A stretch of DNA of 43,700 bases from the NCBI GenBank assembly GCA_029260715.1, contig JAJDCS010000025.1, positions 1 to 43,700 on the forward strand. The letters are read 5' to 3'. Shown piece after piece: positions 11,870 to 43,681 of the stretch; the first letter of the stretch is position 1; each line of letters begins with the position of its first letter. Both the position numbers and the translations under genes were made by a program. The stretch comes from Phycisphaeraceae bacterium. Lineage in GTDB: Bacteria > Planctomycetota > Phycisphaerae > Phycisphaerales > Phycisphaeraceae. The notes below the pieces were generated by a model. The model saw only the letters and a program-made list of their open reading frames with translations. It was not told where the DNA came from and did not search any database.

Positions 11870-13414
11870 ATGACGGGGACACCTCTTGTGTCGAAGTCCA
11901 TTTTCTTATGGTGCGCGGTGTTTTTATCGGCGTCTGTCGCGCACGCGCAGGACGGCTCGTTCGTTGAACGCGTCTCGCTGTTGAGCAAACCGCCCGCTTA
12001 TTGGTCCGTGCTGCCCCACACGCTCCAGTCCACCCCCGACGCCACGCACGTGTTATACGCCGCCACCCGGAACAACCAGGCGCTGGTGGTACACGACCAG
12101 CAGGTAGGCCAGCCGTACAGCCAGATCGTTGGGCCCACGCTAAGCCCCGACGGTTCGCGGTTCGCGTACCTAGGCCGCCGGGACAACCTCTGGTGGCTGG
12201 TTCTTGATAACCGCACGCTGCTGGGCCAGCCGCCGCAGACGCCCCCCGTCTTCAGCTCGGATTCGTCGCACGTGGCATACCTGGCTCAAGAAGGCAGCCG
12301 CTGGTTTTTCGTCATCGATGGCAAAGACGGACAGCGGTTCGACCAAGTCGACGCCGAGTCGCTGGCGTTCAGCCCGGATTCGTCGAGCGTGGCGTACGCC
12401 GCGAGGGACGGCAACATGTGGTTCGTGGTCGAAAACGAGCAACCCAGCCGCAAGTATGACCGTGTGGTAGGCCAACTCGTCTACAGCCCCGACTCGACGC
12501 GCCTGGCGTACGTCACCGTGCGGGGCGACAACTGGCGCGTGTCCGTTAATAACCAACTCGGCCAGCCGTGCAAGCAGATCGGCGGCAAGCCGGTGTTCAG
12601 CCCCGATTCGTCCCACGTCGCCTACTGGGCCAAGCAACCCAACGGCAAGTGGGCCGTGGTCTTGGACGGCAAGGTAGACCTCAACTACGAAGCCGACGCT
12701 TTCCACGAACTGGTTTTTAGCCCCGATTCAAGCCGCCTGGCCTGTTTTGTGCGGCGCGGTAAGCGATGGCGGGCGGTGGTGGACGGCAGGGTGAGCCTGG
12801 CTTACGACGGCATGGGGCTAAGCAGCCTGACCTTCAGCGCGGACTCTAAACACGTCGCCTACGCAGCCAAGCGGCGGTGGTCCTGGTACATGGTCAAAGA
12901 CATGATCGAACACCCAGCCTACGACCAGCTATTGGCCGGATCCGTCCGGTTCAGCCCGGATTCGAGCCGCCTGGCATACGGCGCCAGCCGCGACGGTCGG
13001 TGGGCGATCGCGGTGGACGGCTACGAGCACCGAGGGTTCGACCAAGTCGACCCCGGCAGCATTGTGTTTAGCGAAGACGGGTCAAAGATCGCGTACGTGG
13101 CGACGTCCAATTCGAAGTCGCGCGTGGTGATCGACGGCGAACCTCAGCCCCAGGCGGACCGAGTGAGCCAACCGGTGATCAGCCCGGACGGGGCGTATGT
13201 CGCTTGGCTTAGCCAACAGCCCGATCAGAGTTGGCGCGTGATGGTCAACGGCGTGCCCAGCGGCTTGGCGTTCGCGCAGCCTCTGCCTGGCGCGGCGTTG
13301 ACCTTTGACACCCCCACCAGCTTGCGGATCGGGATCGCCGAGTTACCGGGCCCACGGTACCAGCGGCTGGAGCTGAGGGTCGAACCCACCACGACCGTCT
13401 CAGCGAGGCCCTAG
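11870..13414 (+). CDS. Exported PD40/WD40-like beta-propeller protein, paralogue 1
   Basis: 514 residues with a classical signal peptide (hydrophobic core at about 9-22, cleavage likely after AHA-Q). The rest is about ten repeats of 40-48 residues, each marked by a form of FSPDSSxVAYxA; variants include LSPDGSRFAYLG, FSADSKHVAYAA and ISPDGAYVAWLS. Each repeat then has W-x-x-V-x-D/N-G. This is the TolB/PD40 propeller pattern. The C-terminus has PGAALTFDTPTSLRIG and PGPRYQRLEL, shared with the next gene. A good Shine-Dalgarno (AGGAGA) precedes the ATG. The protein should fold in the periplasm or outside as a binding scaffold; no catalytic residues are visible. Confidence 0.8.
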   Translation: MTGTPLVSKSIFLWCAVFLSASVAHAQDGSFVERVSLLSKPPAYWSVLPHTLQSTPDATHVLYAATRNNQALVVHDQQVGQPYSQIVGPTLSPDGSRFAYLGRRDNLWWLVLDNRTLLGQPPQTPPVFSSDSSHVAYLAQEGSRWFFVIDGKDGQRFDQVDAESLAFSPDSSSVAYAARDGNMWFVVENEQPSRKYDRVVGQLVYSPDSTRLAYVTVRGDNWRVSVNNQLGQPCKQIGGKPVFSPDSSHVAYWAKQPNGKWAVVLDGKVDLNYEADAFHELVFSPDSSRLACFVRRGKRWRAVVDGRVSLAYDGMGLSSLTFSADSKHVAYAAKRRWSWYMVKDMIEHPAYDQLLAGSVRFSPDSSRLAYGASRDGRWAIAVDGYEHRGFDQVDPGSIVFSEDGSKIAYVATSNSKSRVVIDGEPQPQADRVSQPVISPDGAYVAWLSQQPDQSWRVMVNGVPSGLAFAQPLPGAALTFDTPTSLRIGIAELPGPRYQRLELRVEPTTTVSARP

Positions 13415-13630
13415 GTCGGCGGCTGTGGCGACACAACTTTTAAGCTGTAAAACCTTTATACGCCGTATACGCCACCAGGCGTTAACCCTTCAAAATAAAG
13501 TGTGACGGCGGATGCGTCGAAGTGTTTAGTATCAGTGATCATACGGTTGGGCTGTACGCGCCTGTGTTGCCACAGCGGATGCCAAGTAAGGGGACGGAGG
13601 CACCTGCACCATCGGGATTTTTTTCGCACC

Positions 13631-15136
13631 ATGGCTATCCATACGCACACCCCCCATCACCTCCTGCGGTGGCTGCTCATCGGCGCCGCCTTTGCCGCGG
13701 CGTTTTTCGGGTTCCAGTCGCGCGTGGGCGGGCAAGAGGTCTCGGAAGAGCAGCCGACCTTCGCCGAGCGCCTGATCCCACTTAGCACCGTGCCGCACGA
13801 TTGGTCCATGGTGACCGACTCAGCGGTCGCAAGCCCAGACTCAAGGCGCGTGGCATTTCGCGTAGGCAAAACCAGAGGTGGCCAAGCGCAGGCTGTCATG
13901 TTGGATGGGGATATGGGTCGAAAATCACCCACGCTTTACGGGCCTGTGTTTAGCCCGGACTCCAGCACCGTGGGCATCGTACACACCGCCGGAGACCAAG
14001 GGGTGTTGGAAGTCGACAACCGCGTCCTGACCGTGCAAGAACCTGTCGCGCCGGTCATCTTTAGCCCGGACTCCAAACGCACCGCCTTCATTGCCAGAGA
14101 AGGCACGCAGCGGTTTGTGGTGGTCGACGCCAAGCGTCAACTCGTGGTCTATGACGAAGTCCCCCCAGAGATGATCACGTTCAGCCCCGACTCGAAGCAC
14201 ATCGCGTTCGTGGCGCGGCGGGGGCGGGCGTGGTTCGTCGTGGTCAACGGCCAGGAAGGCGAGGCTTACTCCATCGCTAGCCACCCGGTGTTTAGCCCCG
14301 ATTCGCAACGGCTGGCGTACTGGGTCCAGAAGTCGTCAGGCCAATGGGTGGTCGTTGTCGACGGGCAGGAAGACCTGTTAGCCATCGGCGACGCACCGGG
14401 CGGGCTTGTCTTCAGCCCTGATTCTTCGATGCTGACAGCCGTGGTGAAGCGCAACAAGCGCTGGCACGTGGTCATCAACAACCGTTTCGAGCCCGGTTAC
14501 GAGGCGATCGGCCCCGACGGCGTGGTCTTCAGCCCGGATTCGTCCCACCTGGCCTACACCGTGAAACACGAGGGGCGTTGGCGGGTCGTGCTCAACGGCA
14601 AGCTGCTGGCCGGGCAATTCGACGCGATCATGCCCTGCAGCCTCATGTTCAGCCCGGACTCCGGGCGGCTGGCGTACGCGGCGCAGGGGCGGGGCGGCTG
14701 GGCCATGATCGTCGATGAAATACCCCATCAAACCTACGCGTGGGTGTACGCAGAGAGCATGCGGTTTAGCCCCAACTCCAACCGCTTCGCCTACGTGGCC
14801 GGCACCTCTTCGGGCAAAGCCGTGGTGGTCGTGGACGGGCAACGATGGGGCGTCTGCCACGGGGTGGAAGACCTGGCCTTCTCGCCCGATTCGTACAGCG
14901 TGCTGTGGGTGCAGCGGCTAGGCAGACGCAGCCGTATGGTCGTAGACGGCGGTTGGGGCGTTGAGGTGTTTGACGGCCTTGTCCCCGGGGCGTCGATCGT
15001 GTTCGACAGCCCCACCAGGTTTCATACGGTGGTCAGCAAGCGGCCCGGCCCGGTGTACTTCCGCTTGGAGGGCGACTTGAAAACCGACCCTCTGCCAAGC
15101 GTGCCCGCCCCGCCACACAGCGTGACCTCCTACTAA
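13631..15136 (+). CDS. Exported PD40/WD40-like beta-propeller protein, paralogue 2
   Basis: 501 residues from the ATG at 13631. The open frame extends upstream to 13502, but the signal peptide (core LLRWLLIGAAFAAAFFG) starts here, which decides the start. Ten FSPDS-type repeats follow (FSPDSSTVGIVH, FSPDSKRTAFIA, FSPNSNRFAYVA and others). The C-terminal block PGASIVFDSPTRFHTV and PGPVYFRLEG is clearly homologous to that of the preceding gene. The two are a tandem duplication that has since diverged. Its stop overlaps by four bases the stop of the convergent small membrane protein gene. Function unknown; a binding or sensing scaffold is likely. Confidence 0.78.
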   Translation: MAIHTHTPHHLLRWLLIGAAFAAAFFGFQSRVGGQEVSEEQPTFAERLIPLSTVPHDWSMVTDSAVASPDSRRVAFRVGKTRGGQAQAVMLDGDMGRKSPTLYGPVFSPDSSTVGIVHTAGDQGVLEVDNRVLTVQEPVAPVIFSPDSKRTAFIAREGTQRFVVVDAKRQLVVYDEVPPEMITFSPDSKHIAFVARRGRAWFVVVNGQEGEAYSIASHPVFSPDSQRLAYWVQKSSGQWVVVVDGQEDLLAIGDAPGGLVFSPDSSMLTAVVKRNKRWHVVINNRFEPGYEAIGPDGVVFSPDSSHLAYTVKHEGRWRVVLNGKLLAGQFDAIMPCSLMFSPDSGRLAYAAQGRGGWAMIVDEIPHQTYAWVYAESMRFSPNSNRFAYVAGTSSGKAVVVVDGQRWGVCHGVEDLAFSPDSYSVLWVQRLGRRSRMVVDGGWGVEVFDGLVPGASIVFDSPTRFHTVVSKRPGPVYFRLEGDLKTDPLPSVPAPPHSVTSY

Positions 15137-20800: not shown

Positions 20801-22141
20801 CCGGGCGTGGTCAAATCCGGCAACAACAAGTTCGACGCAACGCTGAACATCACCAGCGGCGCCACGCTCACCGTCAACACGCCCGCACCCTGGGTGTTCA
20901 ACGGCAGCGGCTTCCTCGGCAACGGCGGCGCGGCCCCCGCCGTCATCGCAGGGTCAACCGTGGGCATCGGCGACGGCTCTATCCCCGCTTCGCTAATCGT
21001 TAACGGGCTTGGCAGGATCACCGCGCCGGCCGACTTCCGCGCCGACGCGGCGGTGGGCATCCCCAACGTCCCCAGCCGCCTGGAAATGCTAGGCGTCACC
21101 ACACTAAGCGGCGGTACCTACAACGGCCTGGGCACCATGGCATTCGACAACGACCTCACCGTGCTGACAGACACCACCATCAACACCGATGGCCTGGACC
21201 TCGACGGCGGCACTGACGCCGATCACACCGTCACCGTGGCCAACGGCGCAACGTTCACCATCAACTCGATCCGCCTCGATGACACCAACACTAATTTCGG
21301 CGACACCATGGTGATCGAAAACAACGCAACCCTCGACGTGAACACAAACACCGGCTGGGGGCTTGACCCCGCAGGCGTGCTGCGTTTCGAGGGCGAAGCC
21401 GAAATGAACCCCAGCGCCACGCTCTCGGGCCAAACCCTCAGCAGCCTTGGCCGCATCGAAGGCAACGGAATATTGGAAGTCACGGTCATCACCCGCGGCA
21501 CCATCAGCCCCGGTCTGTCGGCTGGGATATTGCAGTTCGACCAATTAATTCAAGGATCAGCCAGCGTCACCGAGGTCGAGCTAGGCGGCACCGCCGCAAT
21601 CACCGAGCACGATCAGGTTGTCGTCACCGGCGGCGTGTCCCTGGACGGCGCGTTAAACATCTCGCTGCTGGGCGGTTTCACCCCCGATTACTTTGACGAG
21701 TTCCAAGTCATCACCGCCACTACGCGAAGTGGCGAGTTTGATCAATTCGCCGGCGCGTTCATCAACTCCGACATGACCCTCGCCCCCATCTACGATTACG
21801 GCGGCGACATCGGGCTAACGCTCATCGCGGCGATCCCCGGCGACGCCAACCTCGACGGCACGGTCAACGGCCTGGACCTGCTGACCTGGCAAGCCAACCT
21901 GTTCAGCGGCGACGAGTGGGTCCAAGGCGACTTCAACCTCGACGGCCTAGTCAACGGCCTGGACCTGCTGATCTGGCAGAGCCACTTGTTTGACACCGTG
22001 GCCGGCCTCGCCGGCGGCGCCGCCCCGTTGGCGTCCGGCACCCCGACGATCCCAGAGCCTGGGACGCTTGGCTTGATGGGCCTGGGCGTGCTGGGCATAG
22101 CCACGCGGCGCAAGGCGGCTTATAGCACGTTGCATTTATAA
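17870..22141 (+). CDS. Giant exported zincin-like, tandem-repeat, dockerin and PEP-CTERM protein
   Basis: 1423 residues. A signal peptide occupies about 1-22. Residues 25-290 form a zincin-like domain with H198-E-L-G-H202-T-I-G205, but the usual third ligand three residues on is G208; HLH at 246-248 and the Met at 258 (NLMC) may complete the site. This fits the metalloprotease family often fused to PEP-CTERM. Residues about 300-1310 are beta-solenoid-like and contain four long repeats whose GG-x-x-V-G-x-G marker falls at 573, 745, 922 and 1081 (period 159-177). A dockerin with two calcium loops (DANLDGTVNGLDLL and DFNLDGLVNGLDLL) is at about 1324-1375. The sorting signal PEP at 1395-1397, a hydrophobic helix and TRRK end the native protein. 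YSTLHL and the stop come from an inserted repeat element. Confidence 0.85.
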   Translation: MRHPKWLLVLAFLISWGWAAQAWSINFVFTYETGNSNPPTINGQVDLFGAQLTSMMNSAATLWEDIIEDNWTINVALRWQVPTLGPNFSGQMSLYGAHPNNTNGDPSEQSGRAVWTLIVMNPNRTWWVDPTPFDNSEFDMTQTLYRDLTSGAGGQQSAWYTGNVPSVLEVGFRGAPNASAPALMQAAGTRDLLTVGIHELGHTIGVGGTQAATNEFSTDGDYDIDTQFVNGANFDVLSQSTGNSHLHPSSTAGAPNLMCVCSLANIRILPSAIDVIAGATVANWTDIDLQRQDFLGGNNWNTAFNWEGDAVPGSADDAFVRTGANVSLSANGRVENLLISNSSEVTTNANTLTVDSTTTLENNSGGLRPFLRVNAGGVFETNDLNLNGSELLLIGGQADISDDLTVRVANGLGGRVTGQGTINIAGDFTNGGVIRPSGGTITINSSAAFPALNLDGIGGAGEIDATVGDLVVNGELLGSFDGLITIGEGRTVTFNDGWELGTSGELNLEGGAEVSDAARIAGSATTLDGPVNVDGLALLNTTTTTIEDGATINLAANTASGTLEINGQTVYAGGNTVGAGVFKQDGDVTVTGNFSVGNAVYDWDGGGLSNMTINPGATLSISSNTVEPTANDGRDATLDINGGTLSVVTAWRLDGTMNLTETGGQAPTLNGVGGVTVHTTGEFNVTGDATINAPVTVNGDMNIGQFGQTAGIARFNGQTEFESTATVTLEQGSVLWLFGDATYRGGSHVGNGTLRLDGTVDILDDTSWGMLTLDWDGSNGNSVTNIGLADSLSIASSTIETTANDGHDGEINITSGQLSVLTAWRLDGEMNMTQIAPQFISPTLNGAGGLTVHTTGQLNTDGNTIINTAVTVNGGVQVVDGIAHFNNNVTFNNTADVVVSISSLSVTDAEVIELNSDTTFNGGSYVGNGTIRQIGDATVNAATTISVGRYDADGEEATPNTLLLNADLTLNVEQIDEPGVVKSGNNKFDATLNITSGATLTVNTPAPWVFNGSGFLGNGGAAPAVIAGSTVGIGDGSIPASLIVNGLGRITAPADFRADAAVGIPNVPSRLEMLGVTTLSGGTYNGLGTMAFDNDLTVLTDTTINTDGLDLDGGTDADHTVTVANGATFTINSIRLDDTNTNFGDTMVIENNATLDVNTNTGWGLDPAGVLRFEGEAEMNPSATLSGQTLSSLGRIEGNGILEVTVITRGTISPGLSAGILQFDQLIQGSASVTEVELGGTAAITEHDQVVVTGGVSLDGALNISLLGGFTPDYFDEFQVITATTRSGEFDQFAGAFINSDMTLAPIYDYGGDIGLTLIAAIPGDANLDGTVNGLDLLTWQANLFSGDEWVQGDFNLDGLVNGLDLLIWQSHLFDTVAGLAGGAAPLASGTPTIPEPGTLGLMGLGVLGIATRRKAAYSTLHL

Positions 22142-22247
22142 ATTTGATTGACTGGGTGGCACGGCTTGCTTGCAAGCCGTGAAATGCGGGTTCGCCATGT
22201 CAACGACCACCGAACATCCATCAAAGATAATCACGCCAGGTGCTCTA
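22121..22247 (+). mobile_element. MITE-like 127-bp element, copy 1
   Basis: This copy is identical to 43555-43681 except for one base near its right end. The left end TATAGCAC and the reverse complement of the right end TAGAGCAC form imperfect terminal inverted repeats (about 25 bases with scattered matches). Both ends are bounded by TA, as expected for IS630/mariner-type target duplication. An internal hairpin CACGGCTTG/CAAGCCGTG lies in the middle of the left half. There is no coding capacity. It begins inside the last codons of the PEP-CTERM gene and provides that gene's stop codon. Confidence 0.8.
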
Positions 22248-22677
22248 GACAACGCCCTTGTGTGCGCACGGCTTTTTCCGCTGGACCGGGTGTGCTGCAA
22301 TAAGAAAAACGCTCATAAGTGCCCTCCATAGAAGTGTTTTATTAACCGTCTTAGGGTGATGGCGGCGCACGGGGATGACCCTTCGGCACAGGTTGTGAAG
22401 AAGCACATCGACTTTCAGGTGCCGGGTTTTCGAGAGATCCGCGACTCAAGAGGCCCGGTGGTCCAGCCAAGGGTTCGGCCCAAGGGGCTGCGGCCACGAT
22501 CATTACGCCCCCAGCGGTTCCGCCCAGGGATCGACCCGAGATTCAGCTTCGCCCTCAACGCCGTGGGCAACCCCTCCTTTCGGCCGCGACGCATGCGACC
22601 CCACCCCCTGCGCCCGGTCCAATTTCCCATTTTTTGACCCCGCCAAAATAGCTGTAAACTGATGGCGAGCAGGCTGC
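22248..22677. other. Gap between PEP-CTERM gene and rpmI, no recognised gene
   Basis: This stretch holds an Arg/Pro-rich frame on the plus strand (22359-22637, 92 codons, ATG directly after GTG) and an equally long frame on the minus strand. Neither resembles a protein I know, and infC, which normally stands here, is not visible. The plus frame repeats R-P-x-x-L-R-P and may be chance coding or a degraded gene. Confidence 0.4.
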
Positions 22678-42750: not shown

Positions 42751-43539
42751 ATGAATTTTCGCTATTTAATGGTTGCCTTAACCACGACGGCGTGCCTCAC
42801 GGTGGCCGATTCGGCCAGCGCGATCGCTACTTACGACGCAGAAGCGATGTCGACTTTCACTCTGGTGAGCACCGGGGGGATGGGCATTTCTTTTGAAACA
42901 GGGCCTGAAGTCCCCACCTCGTCGACGACGGGTGTCGCGGTGGCCAGCATCGACGCCGATATACAGACGCCGTCGGGCATGTTTACCCTGGCGCCGGGTG
43001 AATCGGTGATGCAGACCTCGGCGGTCTCCGGCTCAGCCGACGCGCCCGCCGGTTTCAGCGAAGCCTCGGTCTTGAATGGCGTGTTCGTCACGCTCGACAA
43101 CACCGCGGGCCTCACAGACGCGGTGGCTGAGTTTACTTTTGAGTACACCTGGAGCGGGGTATTTACAAAGACCGACGCGTTGCTTGAAGCCGCGTCCGCA
43201 TCGCCCTTCTTCCACCTGACAGGCTTCGCCCCGTCTGGCAGCGAGACGCTGATGATCGACGACGGCGGCGGCGCGATGCCGGTGGCCGACTGGCTTGTGC
43301 ATCCCGTGGTGGGCAGCCCTTTGGGTGACGCCTTCCTAGCCGGCGGCGCCGCTGGCACTGAAATAGTAACCGCATTCGTCACGGTCCCCGCGGGCAGCAT
43401 CGACTCGTTTTCGGTGATCACAGACGCCTTCGGCGCGGCGGTACACATAAGCCCCGTGCCCGAGCCGATGACCGCGGCGCTTGGGTTCATCGCACTGGGT
43501 GCGCTGGGCGCTGGGATTCAACGGCGTCGCGCGGCGTAG
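42751..43539 (+). CDS. PEP-CTERM sorting-domain protein
   Basis: 262 residues from the ATG at 42751. A signal peptide (LMVALTTTACLTVADSASA, cleavage near ASA-I) precedes a beta-rich exported domain with few distinctive features; TFEYTWSGVFTKTDALLEAA is the middle. The C-terminus has the sorting signal: VPEPMTAALG, the hydrophobic stretch FIALGALGAGI and a basic RRR end. Exosortase would cleave at the PEP site; no exosortase gene is in the window. A MITE-like repeat begins 15 bases after the stop. Confidence 0.82.
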   Translation: MNFRYLMVALTTTACLTVADSASAIATYDAEAMSTFTLVSTGGMGISFETGPEVPTSSTTGVAVASIDADIQTPSGMFTLAPGESVMQTSAVSGSADAPAGFSEASVLNGVFVTLDNTAGLTDAVAEFTFEYTWSGVFTKTDALLEAASASPFFHLTGFAPSGSETLMIDDGGGAMPVADWLVHPVVGSPLGDAFLAGGAAGTEIVTAFVTVPAGSIDSFSVITDAFGAAVHISPVPEPMTAALGFIALGALGAGIQRRRAA

Positions 43540-43554
43540 CAAAGTTTCGCTGGC

Positions 43555-43681
43555 TATAGCACGTTGCATTTATAAATTTGATTGACTGGGTGGCACGGCT
43601 TGCTTGCAAGCCGTGAAATGCGGGTTCGCCATGTCAACGACCACCGAACATCCATCAAAGATAATCACGACAGGTGCTCTA
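43555..43681 (+). mobile_element. MITE-like 127-bp element, copy 2
   Basis: This is a near-identical second copy of 22121-22247 (one base different, at 43670). TA flanks both ends, the terminal inverted repeats are TATAGCAC and TAGAGCAC, and the internal CACGGCTTG/CAAGCCGTG hairpin is intact. It sits 15 bases downstream of the stop codon of the PEP-CTERM gene, so here it leaves the protein unchanged. Confidence 0.8.

Follow-up and report, generated by a model that had tools for sequence, protein, structure and literature searches.

Insertion of a putative IS630-type MITE into the stop codon of a planctomycete PEP-CTERM gene, and related insertions at other gene ends

How does the gene of a large exported protein come to end inside a mobile repeat, and what happens to a protein whose stop codon is hit in this way? 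The question is raised by a stretch of 43,700 nucleotides from a Phycisphaeraceae bacterium (contig JAJDCS010000025.1, hereafter the window), for which a preliminary description had proposed that a mobile repeat, present in two copies, captured the stop codon of a PEP-CTERM gene and set the C-terminus of its product. The best explanation as a whole, to which we give a probability of about 0.93, is that a MITE moved by an IS630-family enzyme inserted into the TAG stop of this gene, and that the left end of the element, reading TAT, gave the protein a short tail. The features on which this reading draws are collected in Table 1; the window is contig C18 of a genome of 3.32 Mb in 44 contigs (G000), and it was compared with a related genome (G032).

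Table 1. Features of the window and MITE copies near PEP-CTERM motifs elsewhere in its genome (G000)
Feature	Position	Strand	Remarks
PEP-CTERM/dockerin-like exported protein gene, 1423 aa	17870..22141	+	last six codons and stop within the MITE
PEP-CTERM sorting motif TIPEPGTLGLMGLGVLGIATRRK	22046..22114	+	best of 60 PF07589 matches in the window's genome
IS630-type MITE, young subfamily, 127 bp from TA to TA	22121..22247	+	one of 25 distinct full-length copies
Putative left TA target copy, bases 1-2 of the ancestral TAG stop	22121..22122	+	
MITE-encoded tail YSTLHL (predicted) and TAA stop	22121..22141	+	
Central palindrome with 10-bp stem, CACGGCTTGC..GCAAGCCGTG	22160..22181	+	common to the older subfamily and the G032 elements
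Putative right TA target copy and G, displaced remains of the ancestral TAG stop	22246..22248	+	
Second MITE copy	43555..43681	+	starts 15 nt past another PEP-CTERM gene's stop and stops 19 nt short of the contig end
MITE near PEP-CTERM motif	window 22046-22247, 43453-43681; G000:C13:125963-126217, C28:35462-35785		
MITE near PEP-CTERM motif, continued	G000:C9:112719-113128, C43:74115-74343, C35:3493-3799		

The two copies of the repeat are present as described and are 99% identical, and the second indeed lies outside a gene. A repeat search of the whole genome gave 44 matches (40 of the 72 first-look candidates being scored), 28 of them nearly complete (97-100% identity) and the remainder diverged or partial. 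Leaving out two contig-end duplicates of other copies (L025 and L027) and one copy whose left end is missing (L028), 25 distinct full-length copies make up a young subfamily, a number that is far beyond chance. All 25 run from TA to TA, mostly with a pyrimidine before and a purine after, and their ends and flanks indicate that the TA target is duplicated. The young ends read TATAGCAC and, on the opposite strand, TAGAGCAC, which are the only terminal inverted match in this subfamily; the repeat search reported no long perfect inverted repeat at the ends of the window's copy. The element is short and non-coding; in the window's copy, the longest frame that enters from either end has 36 residues. 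An older subfamily of 126 bp, represented by 14 full-length copies that were analysed, has the central palindrome and the end sequence in common with the young one; one older copy (L138) lacks the right TA, its right junction reading TG. We also observed a young MITE (L015, G000:C28:77372-77592) that sits in the TA with which an older copy ends.

Among 50 other genomes of the family that were searched, full-length copies were found in G032 only, and a scan with 49 bases of the young left half as an exact pattern gave no contig match in a collection that possibly holds no records very near the window's genome. The related element of G032 carries TAGAGCAACTGGCGTCA at both ends, and long inverted ends are seen in this family; its end has 256 matches in that genome, implying well over 100 copies. 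A second G032 size class of 105 bp has the same ends, lacks the palindrome orientation mark and accounts for 20 of 75 end pairs (stretches L218, L220, L229, L235-L245 and others).

A possible source of the enzyme that moves these repeats is present in the window's genome, where PF13358 (DDE_3, the IS630-type transposase domain) was identified at one intact-looking locus and at one locus in two pieces. The former, L091:2781-3796 on contig C4, is an IS630-family element of 1016 bp with two overlapping frames, which match HTH_Tnp_IS630, DDE_3 and the NCBIfam model for IS630 family transposases (132 bits against a cut-off of 100). Its ends, TAGAGCGTCTGGCGTAATTC and TAGAGCCACTGGCGTAAACA, differ from the older-subfamily end at 4 of 20 positions and from the young right end at 5 of 21, so that an autonomous IS630-family element with matching ends resides in the same genome. 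It is the only intact-looking IS630 copy found, and no matching ends were recognised at the two-piece DDE_3 locus. The full-length copies, the TA junctions and the matching IS630 ends bear out the earlier view that the repeat is mobile, and the sequences suggest that it is non-autonomous and was moved by an IS630-family enzyme. Targeting of TA by the IS630 family has been shown for ISY100, according to the accessible part of that report (PMC2170065). In addition, an IS5-family IS of 876 bp (G000:C5:3-878; L112, L113), with two overlapping frames, ends TAGGTGCTACGGACATTCAT and 11 end matches, in four cases (contig ends of C1, C41, C15 and C28) directly adjoins a MITE copy at its GTGCTC-TA end; the terminal TA of the MITE seems to be a landing site for this other IS.

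When the flanks of the window's copy are joined at a single TA, the reconstructed empty site reads ...ACG CGG CGC AAG GCG GCT TAG, with an in-frame stop exactly at the junction. Because the joined flanks give GCG GCT TAG, the MITE appears to have landed in the TA of an old TAG stop, and the protein, formerly ending ...TRRKAA (as reconstructed), now ends ...TRRKAAYSTLHL. This agrees with the prediction that an empty site would show a stop near TRRKA. The element had been described as beginning inside codon 1418; the codon is correct, and the start lies exactly on its first base rather than within it, since the first TA of the MITE is the TA of the old stop. The open reading frame does end in YSTLHL-TAA within the MITE, as had been stated, after the PEP-CTERM signal. 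A full-length orthologue free of the repeat, in which an earlier stop had been expected, was found in G032, which belongs to another genus: it is 63% identical over residues 8-1415 and ends LARRRAV-TAA with no YSTLHL tail, and the MITE nearest to it, 141 bp downstream, is a separate insertion. The finding named in the preliminary description as a refutation, a repeat-free orthologue with these same last residues, was thus not obtained.

We propose the following series of events. A non-autonomous MITE would be moved by the IS630-family transposase into TA, preferably in the context YTAR, and one copy would have entered the TA of the PEP-CTERM gene's TAG stop, duplicating the TA. The young left end reads TAT-AGC instead of the TAG-AGC usual in the family, and because of this difference six further codons (YSTLHL) would be translated up to the next TAA. 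Stops preceded by a pyrimidine would be natural landing sites, as they contain the target and the element's own end would mostly repair the lost stop, and insertion would be tolerated at gene ends and immediately beyond them.

The sorting signal itself is untouched. The PF07589 match covers residues 1393-1415 of the 1423-residue protein (E 1e-07) with the motif intact, and both this model and TIGR02595 score over their cut-offs; a PEP motif, a hydrophobic stretch and a basic end near the C-terminus are all found, and the genome has two matches to the exosortase model PF09721, as expected for a substrate of the PEP-CTERM/exosortase system. Among the best 30 of the 60 PF07589 matches in the genome, 0-11 residues follow the match, and only three values (9, 9 and 11) exceed the 8 residues of the window's protein. 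As 8 is near the upper end of this range, the tail is unusual but not unique. Judged from the reading frame, the YSTLHL tail would be translated into protein, and it is probably harmless, though it may affect recognition by exosortase. Elsewhere in the window, two adjoining genes at 11870-15136 contain many repeats of the FSPDS..AY type (direct-repeat families D1-D4), and their products may be beta-propeller-like.

Whether stops are hit more often than other places was assessed by counting insertions per available site, with genes called by our own 5-mer gene finder (training set, about 0.5 Mb of the window's genome) rather than taken from an annotation. In this genome, none of the 40 full-length insertions (25 young, 14 old and the IS630 element) is inside a called gene, and eight occupy the TA of a stop codon, TAA or TAG (three young, four old and the IS630 element itself). 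Among the 39 insertions with gene context, these eight stop hits compare with 3.2 expected from the distribution of YTAR sites between stops and non-genic DNA (P=0.013); one old copy in an 801-bp stretch with no gene context (L101) was left out of this expectation and of the stratified counts, and L138, with its TG junction, was included. For the young copies alone, the excess is not significant (3/25 against 2.1 expected, P=0.34). For G032, 571 kb were analysed, and 75 end pairs were reduced to 72 by removing overlaps. Only one of the 72 insertions is in a coding region, and 14 of the 71 non-coding ones are in stops, against 4.7 expected (P=2e-4); since two adjacent pairs share one site, the distinct stop hits number 13, and the expectation of 4.7 refers to the uncorrected count of 14.

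Pooled over the samples of the two genomes, insertions per YTAR site come to 20/194 at stops, 72/2326 in intergenic DNA and 1/3332 in coding DNA. The intergenic sites divide into those up to 150 bp 3' of a gene (45/607), those up to 150 bp 5' of one (13/765) and those farther away (14/954). The odds ratio of stop to intergenic sites, stratified by tetramer and genome, is 3.5-3.9 at three gene-calling thresholds. A special preference for stops compared with the remaining 3'-flank sites was also considered and is not supported (P=0.23, 0.16 and 0.19 at the three thresholds), and tolerance is therefore enough as an explanation. The simplest reading of these counts would be that gene ends, stops included, tolerate insertions, with no special targeting of stops shown. 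YTAR accounts for 93 of 108 pooled insertions (L138 not among them), with 15 elsewhere, and of the TA sites in stops and intergenic DNA roughly one in four is YTAR; stops are available as targets because YTAR contains TAA and TAG. An orientation bias with respect to the upstream gene, strong by eye in the young copies, was likewise not borne out, the count in tandem-gene contexts being 24/42 (P=0.44).

The pooled stop hits number 21 (8 in the window's genome and 13 in G032), and 20 of these genes were read out, the hit at L245:11694 being left aside. In 18 of the 20, the stop is restored at once by the element's own end (16 TAG, 2 TAA). The two exceptions are the window's PEP-CTERM gene and an ArsC-type arsenate reductase gene of the same genome; both were hit by the mutated young left end, in which TAG has become TAT, and both end in the same YSTLHL tail by the same kind of insertion. 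In G032, no more than a weak match to the ArsC-type gene (26% identity) is present, and a family model was used in place of an orthologue: the TIGR00014 match extends to the last of the 114 model positions, which it reaches at the last of the 116 residues before the junction. All eight hit genes of the window's genome have a Pfam family over its cut-off; among the 12 scanned in G032, six have such a match (UbiD, a secretin, a DnaA-type protein and a TPP-dependent enzyme included), two have matches below the cut-off only and four have none.

The ends of the family generally read TAG. In G032, 144 of 150 ends read TAG and 6 read TAA. The older subfamily has TAG at 14/14 left ends and 12/14 right ends (TAA at 1/14). 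All 25 right ends of the young subfamily read TAG, and its left ends read TAT in 22/25 and TAG in 3/25, an asymmetry fixed in a subfamily that spread recently. It is conceivable, though we hold it rather doubtful, that the terminal TAG of this IS630/MITE lineage is a stop-restoring end, with stops as a safe harbour and selection helping to keep the third-base G; the young TAT would then be a natural mutant that leaves YSTLHL tails. If this were true, a TA-targeting element with TAG ends could enter any TAA or TAG stop and leave the protein unchanged.

Other explanations of the window's copy need to be weighed against insertion into the stop. The MITE might have landed upstream of the true stop, in the coding region, and removed the original C-terminus; an element bringing its own stop codon would look alike on the 5' side, but the joined flanks have an in-frame TAG right at the junction, the full PEP-CTERM motif is in place two residues before it and the orthologue stops at the corresponding position, and we consider such a truncation very improbable. 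An error of short-read assembly, wrongly joining the repeat to the gene end, is given slightly less credence still. Contigs of this genome do end at repeat copies, and the contig pairs C18/C38 and C12/C35 share 141 bases at such copies, which indicates that the repeat did break the assembly. The copy in question, however, is internal to its contig, and the apparent word of 141 bases exceeds the 127-bp repeat in length, so that words can span both junctions and the join is credible. Moreover, the join restores an in-frame stop beside a complete motif, and the same occurs at unrelated genes in two genomes.

The repeat might instead be a chromosomal regulatory repeat or terminator (REP-like) that is kept downstream of genes for its function, its overlap with the stop being incidental. 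Its stable palindrome (RNA fold -40.1 kcal/mol, z -2.1), the location of most copies 3' of genes and the position of 8/51 copies within 260 bp downstream of PEP-CTERM motifs would fit such a role. By contrast, a chromosomal repeat does not readily account for TA-duplicating junctions in common, for identities of 97-100%, for a copy inside the terminal TA of an older copy, or for the matching IS ends in the genome. There are also no terminator-like sites (a stem-loop followed by a T run) in window positions 21900-22500, and no Rfam family was found in the window. As an account of the repeat we regard this as improbable; single MITE copies may have a domesticated role. The copies near PEP-CTERM motifs (5/26 young and 3/25 old, with 60 motifs in the genome) may be explained by long 3' spacers.

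Insertion of the MITE into the stop codon has some general consequences. TA, which elements of the IS630/Tc1/mariner superfamily target, occurs in two of the three stop codons, and stops are therefore predictable landing sites wherever such elements occur. The outcome follows a rule: an end reading TAG or TAA leaves the protein unchanged, and an end reading TAT adds six residues. Odd C-terminal tails can thus be explained without invoking function, which is of help for gene annotation, and the question is raised whether element ends evolve towards harmlessness at stop codons.

Small repeats at gene ends have been described in several other bacteria, here compared through the accessible parts of the published accounts. 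RUP of S. pneumoniae is a non-coding element of about 107 bp with a TA target and ends like those of the resident IS630-Spn1, and it is overrepresented between convergent genes, which its source explains by weak selection downstream of genes (PMC2229807, PMC3049150). As a MITE served by an IS630-family IS, it has the same anatomy as the MITE and the L091 element described here; it differs in sequence and host and has stops in all six frames, and the accessible text reports neither landing in stop codons nor stop-restoring ends. The nearest printed precedent is BOX, also of S. pneumoniae, in which the repeat encodes the real gene's stop in 36/58 overlapped coding sequences and orthologues give no strong evidence of truncation (PMC3049150). 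BOX, however, is another type of element (its ends were compared with ISSpn2), and the accessible text does not link its stops with a TA target or a terminal TAG. In Coxiella burnetii, QMITE1 and QMITE2 overlap gene 3' ends by 1-50 bp, and EnhC of one strain has 33 additional C-terminal residues from QMITE2 (PMC5896051); these are other sequences, for which the text seen states neither how often available sites are hit nor any restoration rule. In Erwinia carotovora, the small mobile repeat RU-1 removed the normal stop of ECA3499 and extended the C-terminus of the enzyme (PMC2759123), the extension being of 35 residues and the repeat of another family. Judging from what these sources print on BOX, QMITE and RU-1, that a MITE can supply a stop was therefore already known. 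For counts per available site and for stop-restoring ends, our searches of the open-licence literature found no precedent, and the new part is this wider pattern, in which stop hits are counted per available site and the ends of the element restore the stops that it enters.
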